Origin: an uncultured Rhodospirillales bacterium
Lineage (GTDB): Bacteria > Pseudomonadota > Alphaproteobacteria > Azospirillales > Azospirillaceae
NCBI GenBank assembly: GCA_903927615.1
Contig: CAIYNU010000052.1
Coordinates: 1 to 63,343, forward strand
Length of the DNA: 63,343 nt
Direction: 5' to 3'
Below, piece after piece: positions 2,074 through 50,726 of this stretch. Within the stretch, counting starts at the first letter, position 1. Each line of letters begins with the position of its first letter. The notes beneath the pieces were generated by a model. The model had not been told where the DNA came from. It was given only the letters and a program-made list of their open reading frames with translations, and did no database searches. The translations under genes and the position numbers were made by a program.

Positions 2074-3996
2074 CTAGAATCGGAACTGATCGACGGCATT
2101 CCTGGTATGATCGGCCAACCGCGCCAGTTCAATAACAGTGGCCGTGACCTCTTCTGCCGCTGCGGCATTCGCCTCGCCGATGCGCGACAGGTCAACGATA
2201 CTGGACCGGATTTCCTCGACGGCGGCGGTCTGTTGGGCCATGGTGGTCGCAATGCTGGCGGCCATGCGGTCACTTTCACTGACGACATGGACGATTTTAT
2301 CAATGCTGGCGCCGACCGCGCCGGCTTTTTCGACGCCTTGGGCGGTGTCGGCCTGGGCCTTATCGATCAGGGAGTCGATATCCGAGACCGAACGCCTGGA
2401 ATGCTCCGCCAATTTGCCGACCTCTTCGGCCACCACGGCAAATCCCTTGCCCGCTTCGCCGGCCCTGGCCGCCTCGATCGCGGCATTGAGCGAAAGCATA
2501 TTGGTCTGGGTTGCAATTCGGCCAATGACGTTGGTGATCCGGGATATCGCCCGGGCGTTGACCGCGATGGCATTGACCGACTCGATCATACCGGCAACGT
2601 TGGACCGTCCGCTTTGAACCAGAGCCGCAGCTTCCCGGGCGTGGTTGCTGGAGTCGACGGCGTGGGCTGAGACGCTGTCAATGGCCTGTGCCGTCTGCCG
2701 GACGCCGACCGCAATCTGCCGGACCGCATTGGCCTGGTTCTGGGCGCCATGGGTGATCTGGCCGATCGCGGTGTTGACCTCGCCGATGGCCGCGGCGATC
2801 TGGCGAATATCAGCTATAATCCGCTCGGCGCGCCGTTGGCGCTCCTCCTGCTCGGTCCGCTGCTGCTCGGCAAGACGTCCGGCCTTGATCATGTTCTCCT
2901 TGAACACTTGCACGGCCCGGGCCATGACGCCCAGTTCATCAGCCCGATCCTGACTGGGGATCGCGACCGCAAGGTCTCCGTTCGCCAAACGATGCATCAC
3001 CGGTTCCAACCCTAGCAGCGTGGTGACGATTGTTTTTCCCAGCGCCCGGGAAGCAAACCCGGCAACCAACAGCGCCACCACCGAGAGCACGCCGATCACC
3101 GTCCGAGACAGCGCGACTGACCGGTGCATGGTTTTGGTCGCCGCGGTCTGTTCACCGATGTCGGTCTGGTTCAACGCGACAATCAAGGCCAGCAACGTGT
3201 CAGCGGCGATTTTACGCTCGGTATTGGTACGTCCCGACTGGTCGGTGGCGACGATCAGTGCGTCGATGGCCTGGGTATAGGCTGAAATCTGTGGTGCGAG
3301 AATCTTGAGAAACTTTTGAATCCGTTCCGAGGTTGCCGCAGCGGTGCGTAAGGCTTCGACCGACTCGTCCAGGCTGCTCGCCAACTGTTTTGCCGTATTG
3401 GCATAGGCGGGATTCCGGGTGGCGAGGTATCGGGCCACGGCAACCGCTCCGGCTTGAGGAGTGTCGTTGAGTTTGGTCCCGATGGACAGCACATCAATCC
3501 GGTTCTCTCGGAACAGAGCGGTGACGACGGCCGATGTGGTGGTTGAGATCGCGGTGGCGGCCTGGGTGAAATCTTCTGAACTGCTTTTGTGACTGCCGAT
3601 TGCCGTTATCTGCGCACGAACCGTCGTATTATAATCGTTGTATGCTTGCGTAATATTTGAGAAAGAACTCTGTTCTTGCGCAGTCGTCGCGGAAAGCGTC
3701 GCCAATCCGCTCTTGAGGCGATCCAAACCGGTATTCGCGGCCGCCAGGTCTCCATTCGACTCCGTCAAGGTGTAGGCGGTGACCAGGGTCTCGGAGTTGA
3801 GAAGGGCGGCCTTCAAGTTTTCCGCATCCAGCGTCGCCGCGATCTTCCCGGTGACGACATCGGCTGCGGTGTCGATGGTGGCCAGATTCAGCCACGTCAC
3901 CACGCTGACACCGGCCAGCAGGAGCACAATCGCACCCAAACTGAAACCAATTTTATGGCTGATTCCCAGGCGATTCCAAATTCGCATGATTCCCAT
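2074..3996 (-). CDS. Methyl-accepting chemotaxis protein (transmembrane)
   Basis: A 640-residue chemoreceptor that passes ligand information to the CheA/CheW array. Transmembrane helix 1 is at about 17-36 and helix 2 at about 298-318. The periplasmic region between them (~260 residues) is all-helical and of the size of a helical bimodular (HBM) sensor. HAMP follows at ~319-372, then the coiled-coil signalling domain at ~400-640. The hairpin-tip signature [20 protein letters not shown] is at ~505-524. There is no C-terminal CheR-binding pentapeptide; it ends DQFRF. The ligand cannot be read from sequence. It is monocistronic, and an inverted repeat lies upstream at 4037-4065. Confidence 0.95.
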
Positions 3997-4036
3997 CCAC
4001 GTCGTCGGCGAAAGACTGGCCAGCAGTCGCTACGGT

Positions 4037-4065
4037 AAGGCTAATGTCCAACCCACCTTAGCCTT
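4037..4065. promoter_or_regulatory. Inverted repeat upstream of chemoreceptor gene
   Basis: Perfect 8-bp arms AAGGCTAA and TTAGCCTT are separated by 13 bases, about 40 bases before the chemoreceptor start codon on the minus strand. It could be a regulator binding site or a 5' UTR hairpin. No known motif is recognised. Confidence 0.3.
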
Positions 4066-4599
4066 TCCAGCGTTTAATTAGTATCGCTATCTGTGGAACG
4101 ATCGATTTTCCGACGGCGGCTCCCGGTTCGGATCCCATGAGGGCGAGTAACGACGTGAGTCACCATAGATCAATCCTCTGAACCTCTTCAGCCCTAAGCT
4201 GACGCATGGCGTGGTGCGACCCAGAGCATGTGACGCCAAGTCTTCGCCGCCGCCTTTTACCGTGTTAATCGGCGCTCCATATCCGGATATTGGTTCCGGC
4301 ATCGGATTCTGATGATCATTGGATTTCAGGCTTGTTTTAAGAGCGAGTAATCGGGATGTCTAGCTAAATAGAACATATATTTCTGTTGGTTCGGAATCTC
4401 AAGATTTTTTCAGCCAACATACATTAGCAACCGTCGCCCGGCGGAGGTCGATTCGGGAATTCGCGATTATCTTTTTAGGAATACTGATTTCAAAGGATAC
4501 CGATTTCATCGCCGGATAGTGATAGTCCGGCCTTCAGCGACATCCAGCATGAATTCGGCATGGCTGCCATCGAACGGACCAATGCCGCACGAGATTTTG

Positions 4600-4745
4600 A
4601 CCCGCCGGACTCTGAAAATTGAGCCCCTCGTCGTTATTGTTCGGCTTTCGAAAGGTGCGCGTGACCGGGTTGTGGGGGCGACCCAGCCGACAGCGGGGGC
4701 GGGGTGGAACGGCGCGGCGCGGTGCGGTTTTCCGGCCGCCGGGAC
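4600..4745. repeat. Diverged dispersed repeat, copy 2
   Basis: Related to 1626-1735 at roughly 70% identity over the core. It carries an apparent GC-rich insertion of about 30 bases before the shared GGTTTTCC end. It abuts the merR stop codon. A short similar string (CACAACCCGGT on the minus strand) also occurs at the extreme 3' end of the cstA-type gene near 51460, which may be chance. Confidence 0.45.
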
Positions 4746-5156
4746 TCATTCGTTCCCATCGTGCAGCGCCTTCAGAATGGTGCAACTGTCGATCCGCTGG
4801 CCGGAGCAGGCGTCGATCAGGGCCTTGAACTGGGCTTTCAGGGCGGTGAGTTCGGCGATGTGGTGTTCGATCGCCGCCAGATGGGTCTCGGCGATGTGAG
4901 TCGCGGTGGTGCAAGGCTGATCGCGGTTACCGTCCAGTCGCAGCAGATCGCGGATGGCTTCCAGGCCCAGGCCGAAGTCGCGGGCGCGTCGGATGAAAGT
5001 CAGGCAGTCCAGATGGGCCGACCCGTAAAGCCGCCGGTTGCCGCTGCTGCGTGGCGGCTCGGGCAACAGGCCGATGCTTTCGTAATAACGGATCGTCGTG
5101 ACCTTGACGCCGGTCAGGTCCGACAAGCGGCCGATGGCGAAATAATCGGTCCCCAT
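4746..5156 (-). CDS. MerR-family metal-responsive regulator
   Basis: A 136-residue MerR activator. The N-terminal winged helix-turn-helix (residues ~6-70) has the family core TTIRYYESIGLLPEP. A dimerisation helix follows at ~85-117, then a metal loop. Cysteines fall at 82, 117 and 125, nearly the Cys82/117/126 positions of mercury MerR. ZntR and PbrR, which sense divalent metals, also keep the first Cys; copper-type CueR lacks it. The Cys117-Cys125 loop is x7, the length seen in CueR. A soft divalent metal such as Zn, Cd, Pb or Hg is the likeliest signal (inference). It is divergent from the MlaA-like gene, with a MerR promoter between. Confidence 0.9.
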   Translation of the reverse strand: MGTDYFAIGRLSDLTGVKVTTIRYYESIGLLPEPPRSSGNRRLYGSAHLDCLTFIRRARDFGLGLEAIRDLLRLDGNRDQPCTTATHIAETHLAAIEHHIAELTALKAQFKALIDACSGQRIDSCTILKALHDGNE

Positions 5157-5169
5157 GTGTCATTCCCTC

Positions 5170-5200
5170 TTGCTCCTCCAGCGCCTGGAGATCGTACACT
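5170..5200 (+). promoter_or_regulatory. MerR-type promoter with 19-bp spacer and operator dyad
   Basis: The -35 box TTGCTC (5170-5175) and -10 box TACACT (5195-5200) are 19 bases apart, the overlong spacer diagnostic of MerR-activated promoters. A perfect dyad, CTCCAG-CGC-CTGGAG (5176-5190), begins right after the -35 box, as in mer, zntA and cueR-type operators. It reads toward the MlaA-like gene, whose start is 33 bases beyond the -10 box. Control by the divergent regulator is strongly implied. Confidence 0.85.
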
Positions 5201-5232
5201 GGCCACCGGTAAAATGAAGAGGACATATCGTC

Positions 5233-5982
5233 ATGGGGATCAAAGCCGTTGTCGCTACCATGGCCGCCGTGGCGGTCCTCGCCAGTCCGGCGATTGGCGA
5301 TGCACAAACTCAGACCGCCGCCGGTACCGGAGCGGTTACGATCGAGACGCCGCGGGATGTCCTGGAACCGCTCAATCGCGCGGTCTTCGACTTTAACAAT
5401 TTGGTGGTCGACTATGTCGTTGATCCGGTCGCGGCCGGCCTGGGCGCGGTGACGCCGGCGTTGGTGCAACGCTTGGGCGTCAATCTCTATGAAAACATCA
5501 GCGAGCCCGAATTCGTCTTTACCAATCTGTTGGCCGGGCATCCCAGGGATGCCGCGGTGTCGGTGGGGCGGTTCGCCGTCAACAGTACCGTCGGGCTGGG
5601 GGGGCTGTTTGACGCGGCGACGCCGCTTGGTTTGGAACGGCGCACCACAGAGGTTAGCGAGGCCATGTGCAAGGTCGGCATTCCGCCCGGCCCGTACATG
5701 GTTCTGCCGTTGATCGGGCCGACAAATATGTTCAGTGGCGGTCTGTTGGGGGCGGCGCTGGCGGCGGAGTGGTACGCCCTGAGCTTGGTTTCGGCGGCGC
5801 TGGCCGCTGGTGACGCCATCTTCGACGTGAGCGTGTCGGTCGCCAGTTTGCGCCATGTGCGTGATATTCCATCGGACGGGAACAGCGATACCTACGCGCT
5901 TCAACAAAAAGAGTTCTGGGATTACGTGAAAGATGGCTGCGGTCCGGCCAATGCCAAAGTCGCATCAGCCGCCAAGGGATAA
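5233..5982 (+). CDS. MlaA/VacJ-family protein without lipobox
   Basis: A 249-residue member of the MlaA family, which removes phospholipid from the outer leaflet of the outer membrane. The family motif appears as LEPLNRAVFDFN, followed by the NSTVGLGGLFD and GPYMVLPLIGPTN blocks. A Sec signal peptide covers about residues 1-24, but there is no lipobox cysteine, so it is not an obvious lipoprotein. That differs from the MlaA at 48 kb. It is the first gene after the MerR promoter and is followed 25 bases later by a Met/His-rich gene. A link between metal stress and envelope lipid homeostasis is inferred. Confidence 0.9.
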   Translation: MGIKAVVATMAAVAVLASPAIGDAQTQTAAGTGAVTIETPRDVLEPLNRAVFDFNNLVVDYVVDPVAAGLGAVTPALVQRLGVNLYENISEPEFVFTNLLAGHPRDAAVSVGRFAVNSTVGLGGLFDAATPLGLERRTTEVSEAMCKVGIPPGPYMVLPLIGPTNMFSGGLLGAALAAEWYALSLVSAALAAGDAIFDVSVSVASLRHVRDIPSDGNSDTYALQQKEFWDYVKDGCGPANAKVASAAKG

Positions 5983-6007
5983 CATATGTTGAATCGGGGA
6001 GGTCCTC

Positions 6008-6433
6008 ATGAGCAAGCCTGACAGGACACGTGCGATGGTGTTGGGAGCGGTGGTCGGACTGGCCCTGCTGCCGTTGGTCGGCAACACGGCGGCGGTGGCC
6101 CAGGGTGCGGGGTCGCCTCCGACCGTCAACCGGGCGGCGGTGGCCCCGCCGGTGACGCCGCGATATGCCTATCCCCACGAGTTGATGACGTATCGCGAGC
6201 GATTCGACATGTGGCGGCGGATGCGGGCGGCGCAATCTCCGGATGAACGATTTGAGTTGTGGGCCAGTCAGCATGCCGAGTTGGAAAAACGGGCCGCCGA
6301 ACAGGGAGTGATCCTGAGGGATCACGGCCCGATGATGGGGTCCGGCATGATGGGGTCCGGTCATCCGGATGGCATGCAGGGCCGCCCGTATGGATCGGGT
6401 GGGGGGATGATGCGCCATCCGATGGCCTGGTAA
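6008..6433 (+). CDS. Met/His-rich periplasmic protein
   Basis: A 141-residue exported protein. The signal peptide spans ~1-31, ending near AAVAQ. A conserved helical segment (LMTYRERFDMWRRMRAA, then a ERFELWASQHAELEKRA-like run) resembles a small family of proteobacterial periplasmic proteins often found near metal-resistance genes. The C-terminus is a flexible tail with repeated MMGSG and scattered His and Met, suited to soft-metal binding such as Cu(I) or Ag(I). GGGGAGG lies 5-11 bases upstream of the ATG. It is co-directional with the MlaA-like gene and probably in the same MerR-controlled operon. Confidence 0.75.
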   Translation: MSKPDRTRAMVLGAVVGLALLPLVGNTAAVAQGAGSPPTVNRAAVAPPVTPRYAYPHELMTYRERFDMWRRMRAAQSPDERFELWASQHAELEKRAAEQGVILRDHGPMMGSGMMGSGHPDGMQGRPYGSGGGMMRHPMAW

Positions 6434-6484
6434 CATTCTTTCACGGCGATAGGCGGCCACCCGGGCCGGGGGCATCCCTGTGAT

Positions 6485-6532
6485 GGCGGGGTTCTCCGGC
6501 TGTCACTCGGCGGGGTTCCCCTGCTGTCACCC
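6485..6532. repeat. 24-bp tandem duplication
   Basis: Two adjacent 24-bp units (6485-6508 and 6509-6532) differ at three positions and begin GGCGGGGTTC. They lie between the Met/His-rich gene and the EipB-like gene. If translation of the latter began at 6480 they would encode part of its N-terminus, which is one reason for preferring a later start. Confidence 0.6.
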
Positions 6533-6644
6533 GGACTCCCCGGTCACGGAAAATTCTGAACCAGCCCTTTCGAAATGCGTTGAAAGTCGCCATAGTTCTC
6601 GGGGTCCAACTCCTGGCCCGTTCTCTTGTCTGGTGGTCGCCATC

Positions 6645-7538
6645 TTGTCCTATCGTCGTTTCGCCCGCCGTGGTGCCGTCTTTGTGTTCGGCATGGTGGC
6701 TTGCCTTGCCGCCACCCCTGGCCCTGCCGCGACCCCAGGGGTTTCGGCAAACGATATCGTGCCCCATCGGGCGATCTATCGGCTGTCGCTGTTGTCGGCC
6801 CGCAATAGCAGTGCTGTGGCCGATGTGTCCGGTGCCATGATGTTTCAGTGGGCCGATGCCTGCGATGCCTGGACGGTCGAACAACACTTCCGCATGGACT
6901 TCGTCTATACCGAAGGCGAAGAAGTCCAGATGACCACCAACTACGCGACTTGGGAGGCCAAGTCCGGCACCCGTTATCGGTTCAATGTGCGTAAGACCGT
7001 TAACGGTGATCTCGATGAAGAGGTTAGGGGCCAGGCGGCGATAGACCCCGCAGGCAAGCACAGCACGGTTCATCTGGACAAGCCGGACGCGGGAGATCAG
7101 CCCCTGGCCGCCGGTACCCTGTTCCCAACCCAACACACCCTGGTGCTGCTGGAGCAGGCTTTGGCTGGGGAGCACTTTGTGGCGCGCACGGTGTTCGACG
7201 GCGCCGATGCCGAGGGACCGACCGAAGTCAGTGTGGTCATCGGCAAGCGAATGACCTTGAAGGATGGCGTCGGCGTGACGGTCGGTTCTAAAGACCGACC
7301 CAGCCGGGAAGTGCTGGTGGCCGATGCCAAGCGCGACAACCGCCTGCTGTCGGGTGCGGCGTGGCCGGTGCGGCTGGCATTTTTTCCCGCAAAGAGCGAC
7401 AGTTCATCTCCTGAATACGAGATGAGCATGTTACTGTTGCATAACGGCATTGCCGAGGCCATGCAAATCGACTACGGCGACTTCACCGTCAATGCCGTGC
7501 TCGAGACTCTGGAGCCCTTGCCCAAATCCGGGTGCTGA
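6645..7538 (+). CDS. eipB: EipB-like cell-envelope integrity protein (DUF1849)
   Basis: A periplasmic protein of the DUF1849/EipB family, beta-spiral proteins that support envelope integrity in Brucella. The conserved features are PHRAIYRLSLL near the mature N-terminus, a central FRMDFVYTEGEE strand, and a paired-Cys arrangement (Cys in DACDAW and the C-terminal Cys). The frame is open from 6480, but those first ~55 codons contain a tandem duplication and no signal peptide. A TTG at 6645 (or GTG at 6633) gives a short basic leader and a hydrophobic stretch ending in Ala-x-Ala. The start is uncertain. It lies downstream of the MerR-controlled genes and may belong to the same operon. Confidence 0.75.
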   Translation: MSYRRFARRGAVFVFGMVACLAATPGPAATPGVSANDIVPHRAIYRLSLLSARNSSAVADVSGAMMFQWADACDAWTVEQHFRMDFVYTEGEEVQMTTNYATWEAKSGTRYRFNVRKTVNGDLDEEVRGQAAIDPAGKHSTVHLDKPDAGDQPLAAGTLFPTQHTLVLLEQALAGEHFVARTVFDGADAEGPTEVSVVIGKRMTLKDGVGVTVGSKDRPSREVLVADAKRDNRLLSGAAWPVRLAFFPAKSDSSSPEYEMSMLLLHNGIAEAMQIDYGDFTVNAVLETLEPLPKSGC

Positions 7539-7558
7539 CCGCGTTGGGGACCGATATC

Positions 7559-8275
7559 ATGACCCGATCCCATGGTGGTTCCATTGTCATCCTCACCGGG
7601 GCCGGCATTTCGAAGGAATCCGGCCTCGATACCTTTCGCGATACCGACGGCATCTGGGCCAAGGTGCGGATCGAGGATGTGGCGACCCCGGAAGCGTTCG
7701 CGCGCAATCCGTCCCGCGTGCACGAGTTCTACAACACAAGACGGCGCCGGCTGCTGGCGGAGGATATCGGACCCAATGCCGCCCATCGGGCTTTGACCGA
7801 ATTGGAAGCCCAATGGCCTGAATCGGTCTTGCTGGTGACGCAAAACATTGACGATCTCCACGAGCGGGCCGGGCATCGTCAATTGATTCATATGCATGGA
7901 GAGCTTCTTAAGGCACGATGCGCGTTCTGCGGGTGCATCCGAGCCTGGCGTGCCGACCTGTCGGTGGCGTTGTCGTGTGACGCTTGCGGTCGTAGCGGCG
8001 GCCTGCGGCCTCATGTGGTTTGGTTCGGCGAAATGCCGTTGGAGATGGACGCCATTTTTTCGGCTCTGGCGGCGTGCAAGCTGTTTCTGTCCATCGGGAC
8101 GTCAGGCCATGTCTACCCGGCGGCCGGTTTCGTGGGCGCCGCCGCCAGCCATGGTGCCCGGACCGTTGAATTGAATCTGGAGCCGTCGGCCGGAACCAGC
8201 CTTTTTGACGAATCGATCCAGGGACCGGCCAGCGTTATCGTTCCGGCCTTTGTTCAACGCCTGCTGGCGGGGTGA
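7559..8275 (+). CDS. cobB: NAD-dependent protein deacylase, sirtuin class III
   Basis: A 238-residue Sir2-family enzyme that removes acyl groups from lysine using NAD. It has the NAD pocket GAGISKESGLDTFRD, TQNIDDLHERAG, the catalytic His in HMHGE, a four-Cys zinc site (CAFC and CDAC), and RPHVVWFGE. The Tyr-x-x-Arg pair in EFYNTRRR marks class III enzymes, which prefer succinyl or malonyl lysine. The ATG at 7559 is chosen over an upstream GTG. The stop codon overlaps the start of the uracil-DNA glycosylase gene, so the two are probably co-translated. Confidence 0.93.
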   Translation: MTRSHGGSIVILTGAGISKESGLDTFRDTDGIWAKVRIEDVATPEAFARNPSRVHEFYNTRRRRLLAEDIGPNAAHRALTELEAQWPESVLLVTQNIDDLHERAGHRQLIHMHGELLKARCAFCGCIRAWRADLSVALSCDACGRSGGLRPHVVWFGEMPLEMDAIFSALAACKLFLSIGTSGHVYPAAGFVGAAASHGARTVELNLEPSAGTSLFDESIQGPASVIVPAFVQRLLAG

Positions 8276-10165: not shown

Positions 10166-12256
10166 TTACAGGTTCAGCGCCTTAACATAGTCTGCCAGCG
10201 CCTGCTGGGCGGTTTCGGCTGCCGCTCGGGCTGCGGTCAGGTCCTGGCTGAGCTTGTCCATCCGGTTCTCCTGATCTCCAAGTCTGGCCACGTAGCGATG
10301 CCCCAGATCGCTGGCGGCGGTGACTGCCTGAAGGTTATCGCGCAGTCGCTGCTGATCCTTGGTCAACTCTGTCATATTCCGTTCCAATCGGTCGACCTTT
10401 TGCTGGTTTTCAGCGATGGTGGCCCGCAACTGCGCGATTTTAGCCACCGCCTGTCGCAATTCGGTGGACAGTGTGCGGGCATTGAGCATGAAATTGATCT
10501 GTTCGGCCGGAATGTCAACCAGCTCAAAATGATCCTGGCGCGGCCGTTCAACCGCTACTGTGACCGTCGCGGTCTGCCCCGCGGCCACGGTGGCGGTGAT
10601 GCGGTAAGCATCGGCGGTGGTCTCGACGATGTCGGCCGCCGGGACCACGAGGTCCCAGCCGGTTTGGCGTGGATGCTCGATCACCAGTTTCCGCGGTTCG
10701 TGGGCGGCGCCGGTGATGGTGTAGGTGGTGGTGGCGCGATCGATGGTGATCAGCTCCAGCACCCCGTCGGCGATGCGACCGCGCGATAGCGTCTCGGTCT
10801 GGCTGTCGCTGCGATCAATAGTCATTTTCTGGTCGACGGCAAAGCTGAGCAGGCGAACCTCCCCGGCGGGCAGAGTCGCGAGCCGGGCATCCCCGACATA
10901 GATCACGTCACCATTGGCGTCGCGCTGGTAAAGGGTCAGAATCCCCGGGGGCAGGCCGGCGCCGCTGTCGTTGGTCAGCCGCACCGCGGCCAGCGGATGG
11001 CGGGGTTCGGTGGTCGGCTGATAGAGCGCCAGGGGCTCCGCCGGTACCGAACGGTTCAGAAGCGGAAGCAAAAGCGAGTGGCCGTTGGCGACCGTGACCG
11101 GGGCCGGGTCGTGGAAGGTGACGTGCGTTGCCGCTTCGCCCGCTTCGGCGGCGGCGACGGCGGCAAATTGTCCGGGGGGCGCCGCCTTGGCGGCGGGCGC
11201 CGGCATCATTGGCGCGGGCACACCGGTTGCGTCGTTCATCATCCCCAGTCCCAGTCCGCGGGTGAGGGAGCGATGGGCCTGTTCTTCGGTCAAGGCCCGC
11301 GGCGGCGGTGCCGGCGTTGCCCCTTGGTCGAGCTTGGGCAACACCCGACCCATGACTTCAACCGGTATCTCGGGGCGGGCGACGTAATAGGCCTCGTACA
11401 GCGCCTGACGAAAGGTTACGGGTTGGCCCGAGATGACGGTCAGGTCGACGCCGTTCCAGTCTTCTCCGCTCAGATTTTCGAGCACGGCCCAGCCCTGGAG
11501 CCCTCCCCGGGGGGCGGCACCGGTATCATCGGCGAGGGTCAGGCGATACGTGGTCTTCCACAGCGGCGCGTCGACCACATAGGCGACTCGCACCGTCCGC
11601 TCCCGGGGGCCGGTACCGGTGGTGTGCAACGTCAGAGTGCGGCGGTCGCGCTCGCCATGCTGGGCGATGGCGGTGAGGGCGGCGTCCAACTGGCTTCGGA
11701 GGCGGTCATCGGTCGGTCGGACGGTCTCGACGTCCTCAAGGAGCGCCTGACGCAACCCATCACTGGTCATCAGACTCAGACGATGGCGCGTCACGGTGCC
11801 GGCATGGTCGGGCAGTTGAACCGGCTCTGCGGTGATGGACACCAGCCGGCCGGTTAGCGGGTGAGGACCGGTGAGTTGAAGTTCGGCGCCGCGCAGCGCC
11901 TTGAACAGAGCCTGGGGCGATTCCAGCGATTCGGGTCCGAACGGCAATTCCCGGAATAGGGCGTGGAGCGGTTCGCGGCCGGGCAGGCTGATGGTGCCGA
12001 TCCCGCCCTGATCGTCATAGACGACGATGCTTTTGAGAATATCGTCGACCCGATCCCGCGGGACGGTCAAGGACAGGTCGGCGTCCCCCGCGACGGTGGC
12101 CTGGTATTCGAAATAACCGACGCCGCCGGTGGACAGCATCACCCGCTTGAGGATCAATGCCGGTTCTGCGGCGGCGCCGGGCGCATCGGCCAGTCCCGCC
12201 AGCAGCAAGAGTACAGCGGGGACCATGGCGGTCCTGACACGGCGTTTCGGTAGCAT
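10166..12256 (-). CDS. Secreted DUF4139-domain protein
   Basis: A 696-residue exported protein. The start at 12256 is favoured by AAGGAG just upstream and gives a clean signal peptide (RTAMVPAVLLLLAGLADA, residues ~8-30). The N-terminal domain contains STGGVGYFEYQ. The DUF4139 core includes LWKTTYRLTLADD and LENLSGEDWNGVDLTVISG. A Pro/Ala-rich insert follows in the middle, and the last ~110 residues are coiled coil (repeated Gln/Leu/Asn heptads). The family has no firmly known biochemical role in bacteria. Its surface or periplasmic location is inferred. Confidence 0.85.
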   Translation of the reverse strand: MLPKRRVRTAMVPAVLLLLAGLADAPGAAAEPALILKRVMLSTGGVGYFEYQATVAGDADLSLTVPRDRVDDILKSIVVYDDQGGIGTISLPGREPLHALFRELPFGPESLESPQALFKALRGAELQLTGPHPLTGRLVSITAEPVQLPDHAGTVTRHRLSLMTSDGLRQALLEDVETVRPTDDRLRSQLDAALTAIAQHGERDRRTLTLHTTGTGPRERTVRVAYVVDAPLWKTTYRLTLADDTGAAPRGGLQGWAVLENLSGEDWNGVDLTVISGQPVTFRQALYEAYYVARPEIPVEVMGRVLPKLDQGATPAPPPRALTEEQAHRSLTRGLGLGMMNDATGVPAPMMPAPAAKAAPPGQFAAVAAAEAGEAATHVTFHDPAPVTVANGHSLLLPLLNRSVPAEPLALYQPTTEPRHPLAAVRLTNDSGAGLPPGILTLYQRDANGDVIYVGDARLATLPAGEVRLLSFAVDQKMTIDRSDSQTETLSRGRIADGVLELITIDRATTTYTITGAAHEPRKLVIEHPRQTGWDLVVPAADIVETTADAYRITATVAAGQTATVTVAVERPRQDHFELVDIPAEQINFMLNARTLSTELRQAVAKIAQLRATIAENQQKVDRLERNMTELTKDQQRLRDNLQAVTAASDLGHRYVARLGDQENRMDKLSQDLTAARAAAETAQQALADYVKALNL

Positions 12257-12382
12257 GGCGGCTCCTTCTTCAGTGTTTCCGTTGGTGTTACCGCCTGCGG
12301 CGTCCAACTCATGGCGCCAACAGGCGATGATGGCATCCCATCATCGCTTACGATCGCGGACGCGGCCATCCGGAGGTTCGCT

Positions 12383-45504: not shown

Positions 45505-48168
45505 GTGGCGGACGTGGAACAGATCGACCGCCTTTTAGATCGATTGGCGTTGTGCCTGGTCGAGAGCAGTCGGCGCTTTGCCGTGCTGGTGGTGCTGGCC
45601 TGTCTGGCCGGGGCTGGCGCCCTGGGTTGGATTGCGGCTACTCGACTGGGTATGGATACGGATCTCGACAAGCTGCTGTCGGTGGAAGAACCCTGGCGAC
45701 AACAGGAAATTGCCTTCGATCAGGCTTTCCCACAGTTTGACGACCTGCTGATCGCCGTGGTTGACGGTGATGCGCCGGAGGCCGTGGAAGCGGGGGCGGC
45801 GGCACTGGCGGATCGTCTGAGCGGGCGCAGCGACCTGTTCCGCAGCATTAGCCGGCCCGACGCCAATCCGCTATTCCGGCGCGAAGGGCTTTTATTTCTG
45901 CCCGTTTCCGATGTGGCGGCCATCACCGCTCAGGTGATCGAGGCCCAGCCTTTTATCGGCTCACTGGCGGCGGATCCCAGCTTGCGGGGCCTGTTCGGCA
46001 GCCTTAAATTGGCTCTGGACGGCGTGATTGGTGCGGATGCCGCGTTTTCCCGCCTGGAACGGCCGTTGGCGGCCATCACCGAATCGGTCGCGACCACCCT
46101 GGCCGGTCACGGCCGGCCCCTGTCCTGGCAGGGCTTCTTAACCGGAGAAAAACCCCGGGCCGAGGCGTTGCGCCGCTTCGTGATGCTGAAAGTGGTGCGG
46201 AACTTTGGTGAGCTGGCGACCGGTGAAGCCGCGATCACGGCGGTTCGTCAGGCGGTCGTCGACTTGGGGCTGACGGCTGATCGGGGGCTGCGGGTGCGGT
46301 TGACCGGTTCCGTGGCCATCGAGAACGACGAGTTACAGACCCTGTCCCGGGGGGCCAGTGTTTCGATCGAATTATCGCTTGGGCTGGTGTGTCTGGTGCT
46401 GTTTGCGGCCTTGCGATCCATTCGGTTGATCTTGCCGATTTTTGTGACCTTGATCGTCGGGTTGGTTGCGACCGCAGGATTTGCGGCGTTGGCGGTGGGG
46501 ACCCTCAATCCGATCTCGGTGGCCTTTGCGGTTTTGTTCATTGGTCTTGCCGTCGATTTTAGCATTCAGTTTACCGTTCGTTACCGAGAGGAGCGCTATC
46601 GTGCGCCCGATCCGGACGAGGCGCTTCGCCGGACCGCTGTGAACATCAGCCGAGCCCTGTTCCTCGCCGCGGTGGCGACGGCCTTGGGCTTTTTGTCCTT
46701 TTTGCCCACCGCCTACGTCGGTGTGTCTCAGTTGGGACTGATCGCGGGCGTCGGTATGTTTATTGCGGTAGCGCTCAACTTTACATTGCTTCCGGCCTTA
46801 CTGACCCTGTTCCGGACTCGGGGGGAACCGGCGTCGGTGGGCTTTGCCGGGGCGGCTCCCATCGACCGTTTTCTGATTGAGCGAGGGCGCTGGGTGCTGG
46901 CGGGGGCCGGCATTATCGCCGTTCTCGGGATCGCCCTGACCCCTCTTTTGCGTTTTGACTTCAACCCGATGGATCTGCGCGACCCCAAAACCGAGTCGGT
47001 GGCGGCCGCGCTGGACCTGATGGCGAATCCCGATACGTCGCCGTTTACGGCGGAGATTTTGGTCAAGTCGGTGGCGGAGGTGCCGGCGCTGATGGCCAAG
47101 CTTGAATCGCTTCCCGAAGTTCATCGGGTGCTCGCCGTCACCAGTTTCGTACCGGAACAGCAGGACGCGAAGCTGGCGCTGATTGATGACGCGAATATGC
47201 TGCTGGAGCCAACCCTGACGCCGGCGGTGGTGGCCCCGCCGCCCGATGTCGCCGCGATTCGGCTGCTGATGGCGGCGACGGTTCAACGGTTGCGCGCTTT
47301 GGACCGGGAACCCGTGGCGCATCGGTTGGCCGATCTGCTGGATCAGGCGCGCGGTCGCAACGATGCCTTTTTTGCGGCCTTGGGTCGGACTCTGTTGTCG
47401 GGTTGGTCGGTTCGGCTTGATGCGTTACGGGAGGCGCTCCTTGCCGAACCGGTGACGCTGGGAAGTTTGCCTGACTCAGTGACGCGGGACTGGATCGCGC
47501 CCAACGGTAGCGCCCGTCTTCAGGTATTCCCGGCGGGCAATGTCGGCGATACGGTGGTGCTTGGGCGATTCGTCGATGCCGTGCGGCGTGTGGCGCCAGG
47601 GGCGACCGGGACGGCGGTGACGGTACGGGAGTCGGCAGTCACAATTATTCGGGCCTTTATTGAGGCCGGCATCCTTTCGCTGCTGGCGATTTCGCTTCTG
47701 TTATGGCTGGTATTGCGGCGGCTTGGCGACGTTTTGCTGGTGTTGGGGCCGCTGCTGTTGTCGTCGTTGATGACGGTAATCGCCAGCGTCGCCTTGGGGC
47801 CGGTCCTGAATTTCGCGAATGTTATCGCCCTGCCGCTGTTGCTGGGCATCGGGGTTGCCTTTAACATCTATTTCGTCGTGAACTGGCGGCGCGGCTTGGT
47901 CGGGCCGTTGCAGTCCAGCACCGCTCGAGCCGTCGTGTTCAGTGCGCTGACGACGGTGGTTGCGTTTGGCAGTCTCGCGCTATCAAATCACCCAGGCACG
48001 GCATCAATGGGTCTGCTGCTCATGATCTCCCTTGGGTTTACGTTGTTGAACACTCTGGTGACATTGCCGGCGTTGCTGGGTTGGGCTGGCCGGGCGGACT
48101 TGATGCGACCAACCGCGGCGCGCCAGACCATCCCCAGAGAGTCGCCGGCCGATGACGCAACTCCTTGA
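45505..48168 (+). CDS. hpnN: Hopanoid-associated RND transporter HpnN
   Basis: An 887-residue inner-membrane RND-family transporter that in other bacteria moves hopanoids to the outer membrane. The topology fits: one helix at ~25-45, a large periplasmic loop with TDLDKLLSVEEPWRQQE, five helices from ~285 containing FIGLAVDFSIQFTVRYREER, a second loop, then five more helices (ALPLLLGIGVAFNIYFVVNW). The GTG start has GAGGAAG upstream. It is followed directly by mlaA, and hpnM and hpnK are nearby, which supports the assignment. Confidence 0.92.
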   Translation: MADVEQIDRLLDRLALCLVESSRRFAVLVVLACLAGAGALGWIAATRLGMDTDLDKLLSVEEPWRQQEIAFDQAFPQFDDLLIAVVDGDAPEAVEAGAAALADRLSGRSDLFRSISRPDANPLFRREGLLFLPVSDVAAITAQVIEAQPFIGSLAADPSLRGLFGSLKLALDGVIGADAAFSRLERPLAAITESVATTLAGHGRPLSWQGFLTGEKPRAEALRRFVMLKVVRNFGELATGEAAITAVRQAVVDLGLTADRGLRVRLTGSVAIENDELQTLSRGASVSIELSLGLVCLVLFAALRSIRLILPIFVTLIVGLVATAGFAALAVGTLNPISVAFAVLFIGLAVDFSIQFTVRYREERYRAPDPDEALRRTAVNISRALFLAAVATALGFLSFLPTAYVGVSQLGLIAGVGMFIAVALNFTLLPALLTLFRTRGEPASVGFAGAAPIDRFLIERGRWVLAGAGIIAVLGIALTPLLRFDFNPMDLRDPKTESVAAALDLMANPDTSPFTAEILVKSVAEVPALMAKLESLPEVHRVLAVTSFVPEQQDAKLALIDDANMLLEPTLTPAVVAPPPDVAAIRLLMAATVQRLRALDREPVAHRLADLLDQARGRNDAFFAALGRTLLSGWSVRLDALREALLAEPVTLGSLPDSVTRDWIAPNGSARLQVFPAGNVGDTVVLGRFVDAVRRVAPGATGTAVTVRESAVTIIRAFIEAGILSLLAISLLLWLVLRRLGDVLLVLGPLLLSSLMTVIASVALGPVLNFANVIALPLLLGIGVAFNIYFVVNWRRGLVGPLQSSTARAVVFSALTTVVAFGSLALSNHPGTASMGLLLMISLGFTLLNTLVTLPALLGWAGRADLMRPTAARQTIPRESPADDATP

Positions 48169-48215
48169 CCGGAACAGGAGTCAAGGCAAATTATTTGCAG
48201 GAGGTCCCAATTCCC

Positions 48216-49085
48216 ATGAAACGGACAAATGTGATGGCAATTGATCGAGCAGAGGCAGATCATTTGGAGGCCGTTCCGACCGCCTGTGGTTCGGAGCGGC
48301 GCAACGCCGGCAGGATGCCGCTGTTGAGTCTGATGGTGGGGAGCGTGGTATCGGCGCTGGTGGCCGGGTGCGCAACACCGCCGGCCGATCCGGCGGCGAA
48401 GGCGGAGTTCGAGCAGAACAACGATCCGTTGGAACCGGCTAATCGCTACTTCTTCGAGGTCAATCGGTTTATCGACTTCTTGGTGATCAAGCCGTGGGCG
48501 GATACCTATCGTCGTATTGTTCCTGACTACGGGCGGCAACGGGTACACAATGTCCTTGGCAATATGAATCAGCCTTTGGATCTTGGCAACGAATTGTTGC
48601 AAGGCCGGTTCTCGGATAGTGTCACGACTGGCTGCCGGTTCTTGATCAACTCAACGTTGGGTTTGGGTGGAATCTTCGATGTAGCCACTGATCTTGGTCT
48701 ACCCAACAAGAACGGCGACTTTGGTCAGACCCTTTACACGTGGGGGGCTCCTGAAGGCCCGTATTTGGTCCTGCCTTTGTTTGGCCCCTCGAATCCCCGT
48801 GACGCCGTCGGTCTTGGCGTTGATGCTTATGGCGACCCCGTGAGTTATGTCTTTGGTGCGAATAAGCTGGTGCTGGCCAATGACGCCCGGTTCCTGGCGA
48901 CCGCGACCGACTTACGCGCCAGCTATATTGAACCGTTGGAGGCGCTGGAGAAATCATCCATCGACTTCTATGCTCAGATGCGGAGTACATCGCGGCAGCA
49001 TCGGGCCAAGGAACTGGGCCAGTCAGCGGCGGACACGTCTTATCCCAGCTACGATTCCGAGGATCAAAAGCCGGCGGCTAAGTAG
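48216..49085 (+). CDS. mlaA: MlaA-family outer-membrane lipoprotein
   Basis: A 289-residue lipoprotein. A lipobox, LVAGCA, is clear after a hydrophobic stretch. The family core follows: NNDPLEPANRYFFEVN, INSTLGLGGIFDVA and GPYLVLPLFGPSN. The ATG at 48216 has AGGAGG upstream, though it leaves an unusually long N-terminal leader. ATG 48315 would give a normal signal peptide. It lies ~50 bases after hpnN and probably forms the outer-membrane end of that transporter. A second MlaA-like protein without lipobox is at 5233-5982. Confidence 0.92.
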   Translation: MKRTNVMAIDRAEADHLEAVPTACGSERRNAGRMPLLSLMVGSVVSALVAGCATPPADPAAKAEFEQNNDPLEPANRYFFEVNRFIDFLVIKPWADTYRRIVPDYGRQRVHNVLGNMNQPLDLGNELLQGRFSDSVTTGCRFLINSTLGLGGIFDVATDLGLPNKNGDFGQTLYTWGAPEGPYLVLPLFGPSNPRDAVGLGVDAYGDPVSYVFGANKLVLANDARFLATATDLRASYIEPLEALEKSSIDFYAQMRSTSRQHRAKELGQSAADTSYPSYDSEDQKPAAK

Positions 49086-49097
49086 CCTGAGGCCGGG

Positions 49098-49135
49098 CTG
49101 GCCGCTATTTGGTAGCGGCCAGGGCTTTGATTTTA
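49098..49135 (+). terminator. Bidirectional hairpin between mlaA and hpnM
   Basis: CTGGCCGCTA (49098-49107) pairs perfectly with TAGCGGCCAG (49113-49122) with a 5-base loop. On the plus strand a T-rich stretch, GGCTTTGATTTTAG, follows. The right arm lies inside the final codons of hpnM, so the two convergent genes share the structure. Confidence 0.6.
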
Positions 49136-49785
49136 GCCTCCAGTAACTCGTTGAGGGCCTGGGCACCGCCGCGGTTGAGTATCGAACTGAACTCAGAGCG
49201 GCGGGCGGCCATCTCGCTGATCGTGCCGTTGATAAAGATATCGATGATTTGCATTTTGCCGTTATTTCGGCGTAACAGATAGCCCATCTCAACCGGATCG
49301 CCTTTTTTAGGGATCAGTTGGGTTTTGACGATGATGCGACCGTTATTTCCCGGTGCGGGGGTTTCCTGTTCGACTTCGAATCGTTCATCATCGTAGCTGT
49401 CGAAGTTGGCGGCATAACTGGCGATGCTGAACCGGCTGAAGGCGTTGATGAGCCGGCTCTGGTCGTCGGGCGAGAGAGTGGGCCAGACGGCGCCGGCTGC
49501 GATTTTGGTCATGGCCGGCAGGTCGAAGGCCTGAGTGATGGCGGGCGTGAGGCGACTAACCCGGCCGTCGAAGCCTAACGCCGGCCCGTCCTTCATGGTC
49601 GCCAGTAAGGTCTGATAGAAAGCATCGACCACGGGCATTGCTGACCCGGCCTGGACGGTGGTCCCGGTCGTTGATTCGGCGGCATGGACCAGGATTGATG
49701 TCGGGCCTGCGGCGGCCAGTGCCAAGGCGATCCCGCACACGGCGCCAGTGTGAATGGGGGTAAAACGAAAAGAGAACGCAGACAA
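49105..49785 (-). CDS. hpnM: HpnM/MlaC-type periplasmic lipid carrier
   Basis: A 226-residue exported protein of the Tol/MlaC-like family (Ttg2D), used to ferry lipids across the periplasm. In hopanoid clusters it is called HpnM. A signal peptide spans ~1-30. Typical segments are VVDAFYQTLLATMK, LPAMTKIAAGAVWPTLS and MGYLLRRNNGKMQIIDI. The start is a TTG at 49785, chosen because GGAGG lies 7 bases upstream; 32 open codons before it are not conserved. It is convergent with mlaA and divergent from hpnK. Confidence 0.88.
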   Translation of the reverse strand: MSAFSFRFTPIHTGAVCGIALALAAAGPTSILVHAAESTTGTTVQAGSAMPVVDAFYQTLLATMKDGPALGFDGRVSRLTPAITQAFDLPAMTKIAAGAVWPTLSPDDQSRLINAFSRFSIASYAANFDSYDDERFEVEQETPAPGNNGRIIVKTQLIPKKGDPVEMGYLLRRNNGKMQIIDIFINGTISEMAARRSEFSSILNRGGAQALNELLEAKIKALAATK

Positions 49786-49898
49786 TGAACGACCTCCGGC
49801 ATGGCTCAGCGGCGACGGCGATGACGGAATGGGGCAGGCGCCGCAGGCAGAAGGTATAAGGGCGCAGCGGATTGGCGACAAGGACTGGTGTGCAGAAT

Positions 49899-50726
49899 AT
49901 GAAGCGCGTGATCGTCACCGCAGATGATTTTGGCTTGGCAGTGGCCGTCAATGAGGCGGTGGAGATTGCCTGCCGCGATGGGGTGCTGACGGCGGCCAGC
50001 CTGATGGTTGGTGCTGCGGCCGCTGGGGACGCCGTGGCGCGGGCACATCGCTTGCCTCAGTTGCGCGTCGGTCTTCATGTTGTGTTGGTGGATGGCCGGC
50101 CCATGCTGTTGCCCGACCGATTGCCGGCACTGGTCGGGGCTGACGGTCGGTTTCGACGTGACCTGATGGCGGCCGGGGTTCGATGCTTCTTTTGGCCCGA
50201 TGCGCGCCGCCAGATTGAGTTGGAGTTGCGTGCCCAGTTTTCCGCCTTCGCCGCCACCGGCTTGCCGTTGGACCATGTCAATGCCCACAATCATTTTCAC
50301 CTTCACCCGACGGTTTTGGGGCTGATTCTGAAAGTCGGCCGTGAGTTTGGGATGCGGGCCATCCGGTTACCGCGCGAGCCCGCTGTGGCCGGGGCGGGGG
50401 GATGGGCTTTGGCGCCATGGACGGCGTTGATGCGGCTACGGCTACGTCGGGCTGGCCTGCGATTCAACGATCATGTGCTGGGACTGAGCCAAACCGGAGC
50501 CATGACGGAGCCGGTGGTGCTTGGGCTGCTGGAGCGGGCTCGTGGACTGTCCGATCGCAGCGTGTCCGAACTTTACTTTCATCCGGCAACCCGGCAATGT
50601 CCGGAGTTGACCGAGGCGATGCCCGACTATGATCATCCCGGCGAATTGCACGCCCTGACCAGCCCGCGGGTTCGTGCTGCCCTTGATGTGGGGGGATTTG
50701 AACGGGTGGCCTTTTGTGATCTTTGA
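49899..50726 (+). CDS. hpnK: HpnK/YdjC-like deacetylase family protein
   Basis: A 275-residue YdjC-fold protein, the family annotated as hopanoid biosynthesis associated HpnK. The metal-binding and catalytic residues appear in VIVTADDFGLAVAVNEAV, LRVGLHVVLVDGRP and LPLDHVNAHNHFHLHP. The fold suggests hydrolysis of an acetylated sugar or similar, but the reaction in hopanoid metabolism is not established. The ATG at 49899 is chosen over an open upstream codon. It is divergent from hpnM with a ~110-base gap. Confidence 0.88.
   Translation: MKRVIVTADDFGLAVAVNEAVEIACRDGVLTAASLMVGAAAAGDAVARAHRLPQLRVGLHVVLVDGRPMLLPDRLPALVGADGRFRRDLMAAGVRCFFWPDARRQIELELRAQFSAFAATGLPLDHVNAHNHFHLHPTVLGLILKVGREFGMRAIRLPREPAVAGAGGWALAPWTALMRLRLRRAGLRFNDHVLGLSQTGAMTEPVVLGLLERARGLSDRSVSELYFHPATRQCPELTEAMPDYDHPGELHALTSPRVRAALDVGGFERVAFCDL

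Follow-up and report, generated by a model that had tools for sequence, protein, structure and literature searches.

A contig of 63,343 nucleotides (CAIYNU010000052.1, assembly GCA_903927615.1; hereafter the window) from an uncultured Rhodospirillales bacterium of the Azospirillaceae encodes a MerR-type regulator that faces a gene for an MlaA-like protein. The regulator gene, merR (positions 4746-5156, minus strand), codes for 136 amino acids (aa), and the mlaA-like gene, here mlaA (5233-5982, plus strand), codes for 249 aa; 76 bp separate the two divergent genes. Beginning 25 bp after mlaA on the same strand, metHis (6008-6433) encodes a probably exported protein of 141 aa, in which a tail rich in Met and His accompanies a short helical region. 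A sequence-only reading of the window had placed a MerR regulator with Cys82, Cys117 and Cys125 opposite an MlaA-like gene, followed in one operon by a Met/His-rich protein and an EipB-like protein. The first three genes and their arrangement are confirmed here, while the place given to the EipB-like gene is not. The window is contig C52 of a 4.57 Mb genome in 104 contigs (G000), which we compared with four further genomes of the genus (G001-G004). These assemblies are fragmented and probably metagenomic, the record titles of the relatives G001-G004 describing them as metagenome-assembled genomes.

Based on its sequence, merR encodes a regulator of the divalent-metal type. Three Pfam models score above their cut-offs for it (MerR_1, PF13411; MerR-DNA-bind, PF09278; MerR, PF00376), and C82, C117 and C125 are invariant in 9/9 aligned homologs. 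C82 aligns with C77 of CadR and C117 with a Cys of CadR, as does C125 across a one-residue gap; the Cys equivalent to C82 is used by divalent-metal sensors. The top match in the PDB is CadR (6jgv, 2.2e-23), and the ranking runs from CadR (three entries) through 5gpe, a MerR-family regulator, to MerR and CueR. Of the NCBIfam models, CadR-PbrR gives the best score (115 bits, cut-off 151.45), followed by CueR (101.1, cut-off 147.4), ZntR (90.8, cut-off 167.95) and MerR (88, cut-off 150.85), and CadR-PbrR is the best-scoring model for all three orthologs in the genus. Orthologous merR genes (74-75% identity) are found in G000, G002 and G004 only, the matches in G001 and G003 being weak (8.3e-4 and 5.8e-9, respectively). 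A tree of 30 homologs unites the three genus proteins in a starred clade whose branch is long (0.79) and which falls within a group separated from the regulators of loci L092, L094 and L095 (support 99/98). Of the 27 inner branches of this tree 10 are open, so any assignment of a nearest sister to the genus clade would be tentative. The L092 regulator is a CueR by its curated cut-off (169.4 vs 147.4), and L095 groups with it.

Given the CueR score of merR, the regulator might instead answer copper or another signal in the manner of CueR, and not Zn, Cd or Pb. The C117-x7-C125 spacing, which we take to be CueR-like, would fit this, and the CueR model is the best one for the homolog L069, opposite which stands a CDF exporter gene. 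The metHis tail fits as well, since a Met-rich tail suits Cu(I). However, C82 is present and aligned with C77 of CadR, the CadR-PbrR model leads in 3/3 orthologs, the tree sets the genus group apart from L092, L094 and L095, and relatives of merR adjoin CDF genes and ATPases of the GMDC type. A response to copper or another such signal is thus improbable here.

The promoter of mlaA, supported by its conservation and by pattern search, has the layout of a MerR-type promoter/operator (5170-5200, plus strand). TTGCTC (5170-5175) and TACACT (5195-5200) enclose a 19-bp spacer (5176-5194), in which the dyad CTCCAGCGCCTGGAG (CTCCAG-CGC-CTGGAG) occupies positions 5176-5190. The earlier description of a perfect MerR promoter is too strong, as by eye the -35 element shares 3/6 bases with TTGACA and the -10 element 4/6 with TATAAT. 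Over 34 bp the operator is identical to that of the window at 32/34 positions in G004 and 28/34 in G002, in both cases before mlaA. We searched the five genus genomes with the pattern TTGNNCCTNYAGNNNCTRNAG, using exact matches only. It occurs once each in G000, G002 and G004, always directly before mlaA, against roughly 0.1 exact matches expected per genome, a rough figure from the base composition of the window. The whole genomes of G001 and G003, both without an orthologous merR, contain no exact match. By eye no MerR operator was seen upstream of mlaA in G001, G003 or locus L011, the genome of L011 lying outside the pattern search. With one mismatch allowed there were 13 matches vs 66 for a reversed control that was not split by mismatches, and 8 of 10 one-mismatch matches lay inside called open reading frames (ORFs); as they are fewer than those of the control, near matches carry no weight. 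Two that fall outside called ORFs (G002:C69:613-633 and G004:C184:13404-13424) are at chance level. Further operators in the genus, sought with an earlier pattern and up to two mismatches, were likewise rejected, their number being at the level of the reversed control.

Conservation of the operator and of the gene order had been put forward as a check on the locus. Of the five genomes, three contain merR along with the mlaA operator and two lack both; merR and mlaA are adjacent in 2/5. In G002 merR is on contig C33 adjoining eipB and sir2, while mlaA-metHis is on C247 with an intact operator. Between merR and eipB on C33 (L067:1914-2220) is a decayed operator, missed by the patterns, that retains 23/34 of the window's bases, which suggests a trace of the loss of mlaA-metHis from that place. 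A contig misjoin is a less likely reason for the separation of merR and mlaA in G002. As the operator is intact at mlaA and decayed beside merR, it appears to have been kept with mlaA and not with the merR neighborhood. Control of mlaA-metHis by a divalent-metal-type MerR is therefore well supported at the sequence level by a conserved operator, including in the genome where merR is not adjacent.

The MlaA-like protein begins with a signal-like stretch and carries two Cys residues, C146 and C236. The family assignment made by the sequence-only reading is borne out by PF04333 (1.7e-38, 132.7 bits vs a cut-off of 25). Its predicted structure has the MlaA fold, as all Foldseek matches at E <= 0.001 are MlaA, including 5nuo and 8i8r (5nuo_D, E 2.2e-7, TM-scores 0.59/0.70, on a model of medium confidence). 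Known MlaA proteins are anchored through a lipobox. By a crude regular expression a lipobox is missing in 24 of 25 MlaA-family rows, among them the MlaA-like protein itself, the exception being the protein encoded at 48165-49082 of the window (L001). C146 and C236 are invariant in 20/20 aligned members, some of which have no neighbor among the metal genes searched for; the pair is for that reason more likely structural, with a disulfide as the simpler reading. The genome codes for five MlaA proteins, and a partner search that covered MlaE and MlaC found MlaE at three loci and MlaC at 49108-49881 of the window. The latter lies on the minus strand in a region (46921-50510) that also encodes an HpnN-like RND protein (by eye), the lipobox-bearing MlaA and an HpnK-like deacetylase (by eye), and looks like a hopanoid/Mla cluster on the same contig as merR-mlaA. 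Close copies of mlaA without the metal-gene neighbors searched for are found in G001, which has two, one of them followed by metHis (C40), and in L011, which has one (71%). In L011 a gene for a P-II-like protein (PF00543; 5268-5690) is directly upstream of mlaA and a DUF4139-like gene is downstream; the latter family is also found at 10166-12307 of the window.

The metHis gene adjoins mlaA in G000, G002, G004 and on C40 of G001. The last 37 residues of its product include 8 Met and 3 His but lack Cys, as the earlier description of a Met/His-rich protein had implied. In the structural model the helical part (residues 51-100) is confident (block pLDDT 92-96), and the tail is of low confidence. 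The protein has no Pfam match, a single and unrelated PDB sequence match (E 0.93), and no Foldseek match at E <= 0.001. Kinship with Spy, CpxP or ZraP was considered and set aside, as no LTXXQ-type Pfam match was found in the 10 members scanned. Proteins related to the helical part but differing in their tails are encoded elsewhere in the genus and family, with a match in 8/59 genomes. They are small and probably exported, and combine a helical core of the LMT/LIT..ER type with variable tails, some Met-rich (L116 on G000:C35, L119, L121, L122, L118 and L115); some genomes carry several copies, and no Pfam model was found for this family.

These features of the two products also allow for mlaA-metHis as a metal-handling module, whose proteins would help to move or retain metal, either within the periplasm or across the outer membrane, and would take no part in lipid traffic. 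The lack of a lipobox in the MlaA-like protein, the invariant Cys pair, the Met/His tail of metHis and the overlap of mlaA with an exporter gene in G003 (see below) would all be in keeping with such a role. However, the presence of the same Cys pair in relatives with no neighbor of the metal classes searched for makes it more likely structural, every Foldseek match within the threshold is an MlaA, and Met-rich tails are also found in metHis relatives at other places. We consider a metal-handling module unlikely.

The usual targets of related regulators are metal exporters. We surveyed 30 merR loci with flanks of about 1.5 kb, one best match from each of 30 genomes (48 of 59 genomes had a match), including those of the window, G002 and G004. 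The gene finder used was crude and called some antisense shadow ORFs, and examples of the key neighbors were confirmed by Pfam: HMA and E1-E2 ATPase domains are present in one MerR-linked ATPase, and a CDF opposite merR belongs to PF01545. A P-type ATPase was found in 13 loci and a CDF exporter in 7, while mlaA was beside merR in just two (G000 and G004). Eight loci had no match to the ATPase, CDF or mlaA queries (L067 of G002, L071, L080, L085, L087, L089, L093 and L094), although the contig of L071 ends in a CDF fragment, and this locus is labelled CDF in the tree. Among the 13 ATPase-bordering loci, L092 encodes a CueR-type regulator by its curated score and L095 groups with it; the motifs GMDC..C and CPC were present in the five ATPases checked. 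An operator of the type TTGnnCCTnYAGnnnCTRnRG is found in 21/30 loci, those of the window and G004 included, and in L073 the strict operator precedes the ATPase gene and is not beside merR. At the class level, 5 of 385 genomes contain a relative at 1e-36, one being the window's own; of the four others (48-54% identity), three have the operator, one a neighboring CDF and one a neighboring P-type ATPase.

The gene after a MerR-linked HMA-type P-type ATPase in genus g11 encodes a DUF411 protein (PF04214; L124:9778-10245), which may be a metal-binding partner, and L123 and L125 are alike by eye.

A link between mlaA and metal export is found in G003. In this genome, without an orthologous merR, a CDF exporter gene and the mlaA ortholog (75%) share an ATGA overlap, and the CDF has 57% identity to the merR-facing CDF of G013 and 52% to those of G012 and G028. 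Queries for MerR, CDF and HMA-ATPase relatives gave matches at 2/6 loci of the close MlaA group, plus the window, vs 0/64 other MlaA-family loci, a control set of 370 kb in which 42/64 loci are under 4 kb; the queries were single sequences at E 1e-6, which distant relatives can escape. The neighbors of MlaA relatives in g8, g10 and g11 (10 loci) and of a second paralog group (5 loci) likewise gave no match to these queries. By eye, a VIT1/CCC1-like gene is upstream of this second MlaA paralog group in some genomes.

The unit could also reflect promoter hitch-hiking, in which an ancestral merR-CDF unit lost its exporter and its former operator now stands before mlaA-metHis without much adaptive significance. 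A CDF stands beside merR relatives in 7/30 loci and adjoins mlaA in G003, the distribution of the unit is patchy, and the CDF ortholog of G000 (72%) is on another contig (C17), after a P-type-ATPase-like gene. The whole G000 genome contains no exact operator match besides that of mlaA, hence none at the C17 CDF. However, G002 has kept 28/34 operator positions at mlaA vs 23/34 beside merR, a difference that points to selection on the operator of mlaA, and we regard such hitch-hiking as improbable. On C17 (L206:6277-9489) an odd 852-aa protein with a partial P-type ATPase profile (PF00122) is encoded about 45 bp before the CDF gene, and another long ORF (3254-5815, 853 aa) lies on the opposite strand to it.

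The two genes downstream of metHis likely belong to another unit. The eipB gene (6633-7538, plus strand, its start taken as the GTG at 6633) is EipB-like by PF08904 (1.6e-73), as the sequence-only reading had it, and is followed by sir2 (7532-8275, plus strand), which encodes a member of the NAD-dependent deacylase family (PF02146; NF001755 above cut-off). That reading had also made eipB part of the MerR-controlled operon, so that everything from 4746 to 7538 would form one metal-induced envelope operon. In the window eipB is on the same strand, 199 bp separate the metHis stop from its GTG, and only one weak terminator-like match intervenes (6602-6619; four found in the region, 2.3 expected); in G002, moreover, eipB is next to merR behind the decayed operator. 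However, eipB has its own upstream block (CTTTCG..AA ... CATAGT, 6567-6596 of the window), kept in 5/5 genus genomes. In G001-G004 it is on a different contig from mlaA with another gene upstream. It is followed by sir2 in G000, G001, G002 and G004, the G003 contig ending after eipB, and metHis of G004 has no eipB after it. Linkage of eipB to merR-mlaA-metHis is thus seen in the window alone; in G002 eipB is beside merR without mlaA, where it may have come to lie near the decayed operator, and in G001, G003 and G004 it is elsewhere. Given this lack of conserved linkage and the conserved upstream block, eipB was excluded from the MerR unit. A single operon is very improbable, and eipB and sir2 are, by their sequence context, a separate transcription unit.

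Taken together, the locus appears to be a one-promoter regulon of a divalent-metal MerR in which an envelope module, mlaA-metHis, takes the place of the usual pump. From sequence we put the probability of this reading at about 60%. Several observations weigh against it. The regulator scores below every metal-named NCBIfam equivalog cut-off (CadR-PbrR, ZntR, CueR and MerR), as do its orthologs in G002 and G004, and so no single-metal name was assigned. The adjacency of merR and mlaA is found in two genomes and the operator in three, all of one genus and in fragmented assemblies. In G001 mlaA-metHis is present although merR and the operator are absent, and the pair therefore has a role outside MerR control, while the MlaA-like relatives in g8, g10 and g11 adjoin none of the metal genes sought. 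A sigma-70-like match before mlaA (TGGAGA/TAAAAT with an 18-bp spacer, 9/12, 5186-5215; one found, 0.6 expected) could be a source of MerR-independent transcription. For the MlaA-like protein itself, the structural model reaches only medium confidence (pLDDT 64.9) and the crude regular expression finds no lipobox.

The unit resembles CadR-cadA, ZntR-zntA and PbrR-pbr of the MerR family (COG0789) in its Cys-bearing regulator, in its divergent layout, which most of these systems share, and in the dyad within the promoter spacer. Regulator-target divergons in the family are described in PMC1526738, and a PbrR footprint with a 19-bp spacer in PMC3431237; the spacer is 19 bp in CadR/PbrR-type systems and 20 bp in ZntR (PMC1526738, PMC3431237). 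Unlike in those systems, the output here is an MlaA-family gene and metHis with no exporter. The sequence-only reading took MerR regulons normally to control metal pumps, reductases or chaperones, a premise that is too narrow. In the pbr lead operon PbrBC is a C55-PP phosphatase/predicted signal peptidase according to PMC3431237, an envelope-lipid enzyme under a metal-sensing MerR and in this respect comparable to the unit. In addition, a lipoprotein signal peptidase gene (LspA, PF01252; L130:3917-4489) follows a MerR-linked P-type ATPase gene, and a BacA/UppP gene (PF02673; L210:2762-3637) is beside a MerR-linked CDF. Metal MerR regulons with envelope-lipid enzymes are therefore already known, and the MlaA-family target would be the new part. 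PbrBC stands beside a pump, while the MlaA-family protein of the window stands without one. We found no description of an MlaA/VacJ gene under a metal-sensing MerR among the literature matches listed, as judged from titles and abstract starts. By PF04333 and the Foldseek matches to 5nuo and 8i8r the protein resembles MlaA/VacJ of the Mla pathway, from which it differs in the absent lipobox, the conserved Cys pair and the metal-type operator. The EipB-like gene, by contrast, has the family match to EipB (PF08904) and a separate transcription unit.

By analogy with those systems, a MerR dimer would sit on the 19-bp-spacer operator and hold mlaA-metHis off without metal. Binding of Zn(II), Cd(II) or Pb(II) at C82/C117/C125 would then untwist the spacer and lead to transcription of mlaA-metHis. 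We infer that both products would be exported. The MlaA-like protein would most likely act at the outer membrane together with the Mla proteins encoded at other loci of the genome, and metHis would buffer periplasmic metal. Toxic cations may displace the Mg and Ca that bridge lipopolysaccharide, bringing phospholipids into the outer leaflet, from which the MlaA-like protein could clear them. Under this scenario metal would induce a remodelling of the outer membrane. In its strongest form, which we advance only tentatively, a non-lipidated MlaA paralog and a periplasmic metal-binding partner would be the sole targets of a Zn/Cd/Pb-sensing MerR, forming a pump-free, metal-triggered switch for outer-membrane lipid repair.

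Metal-sensing MerR proteins are textbook pump switches, and a unit with an MlaA-family protein and a Met/His-rich protein as its sole conserved output would tie divalent-metal toxicity directly to the lipid order of the outer membrane. The unit would be a compact case, with one operator and two genes. It would also illustrate how a regulator can keep its sensor and operator while the class of its target changes, with the CDF-mlaA overlap of G003 and the merR gene of G002 apart from its target as possible intermediates.

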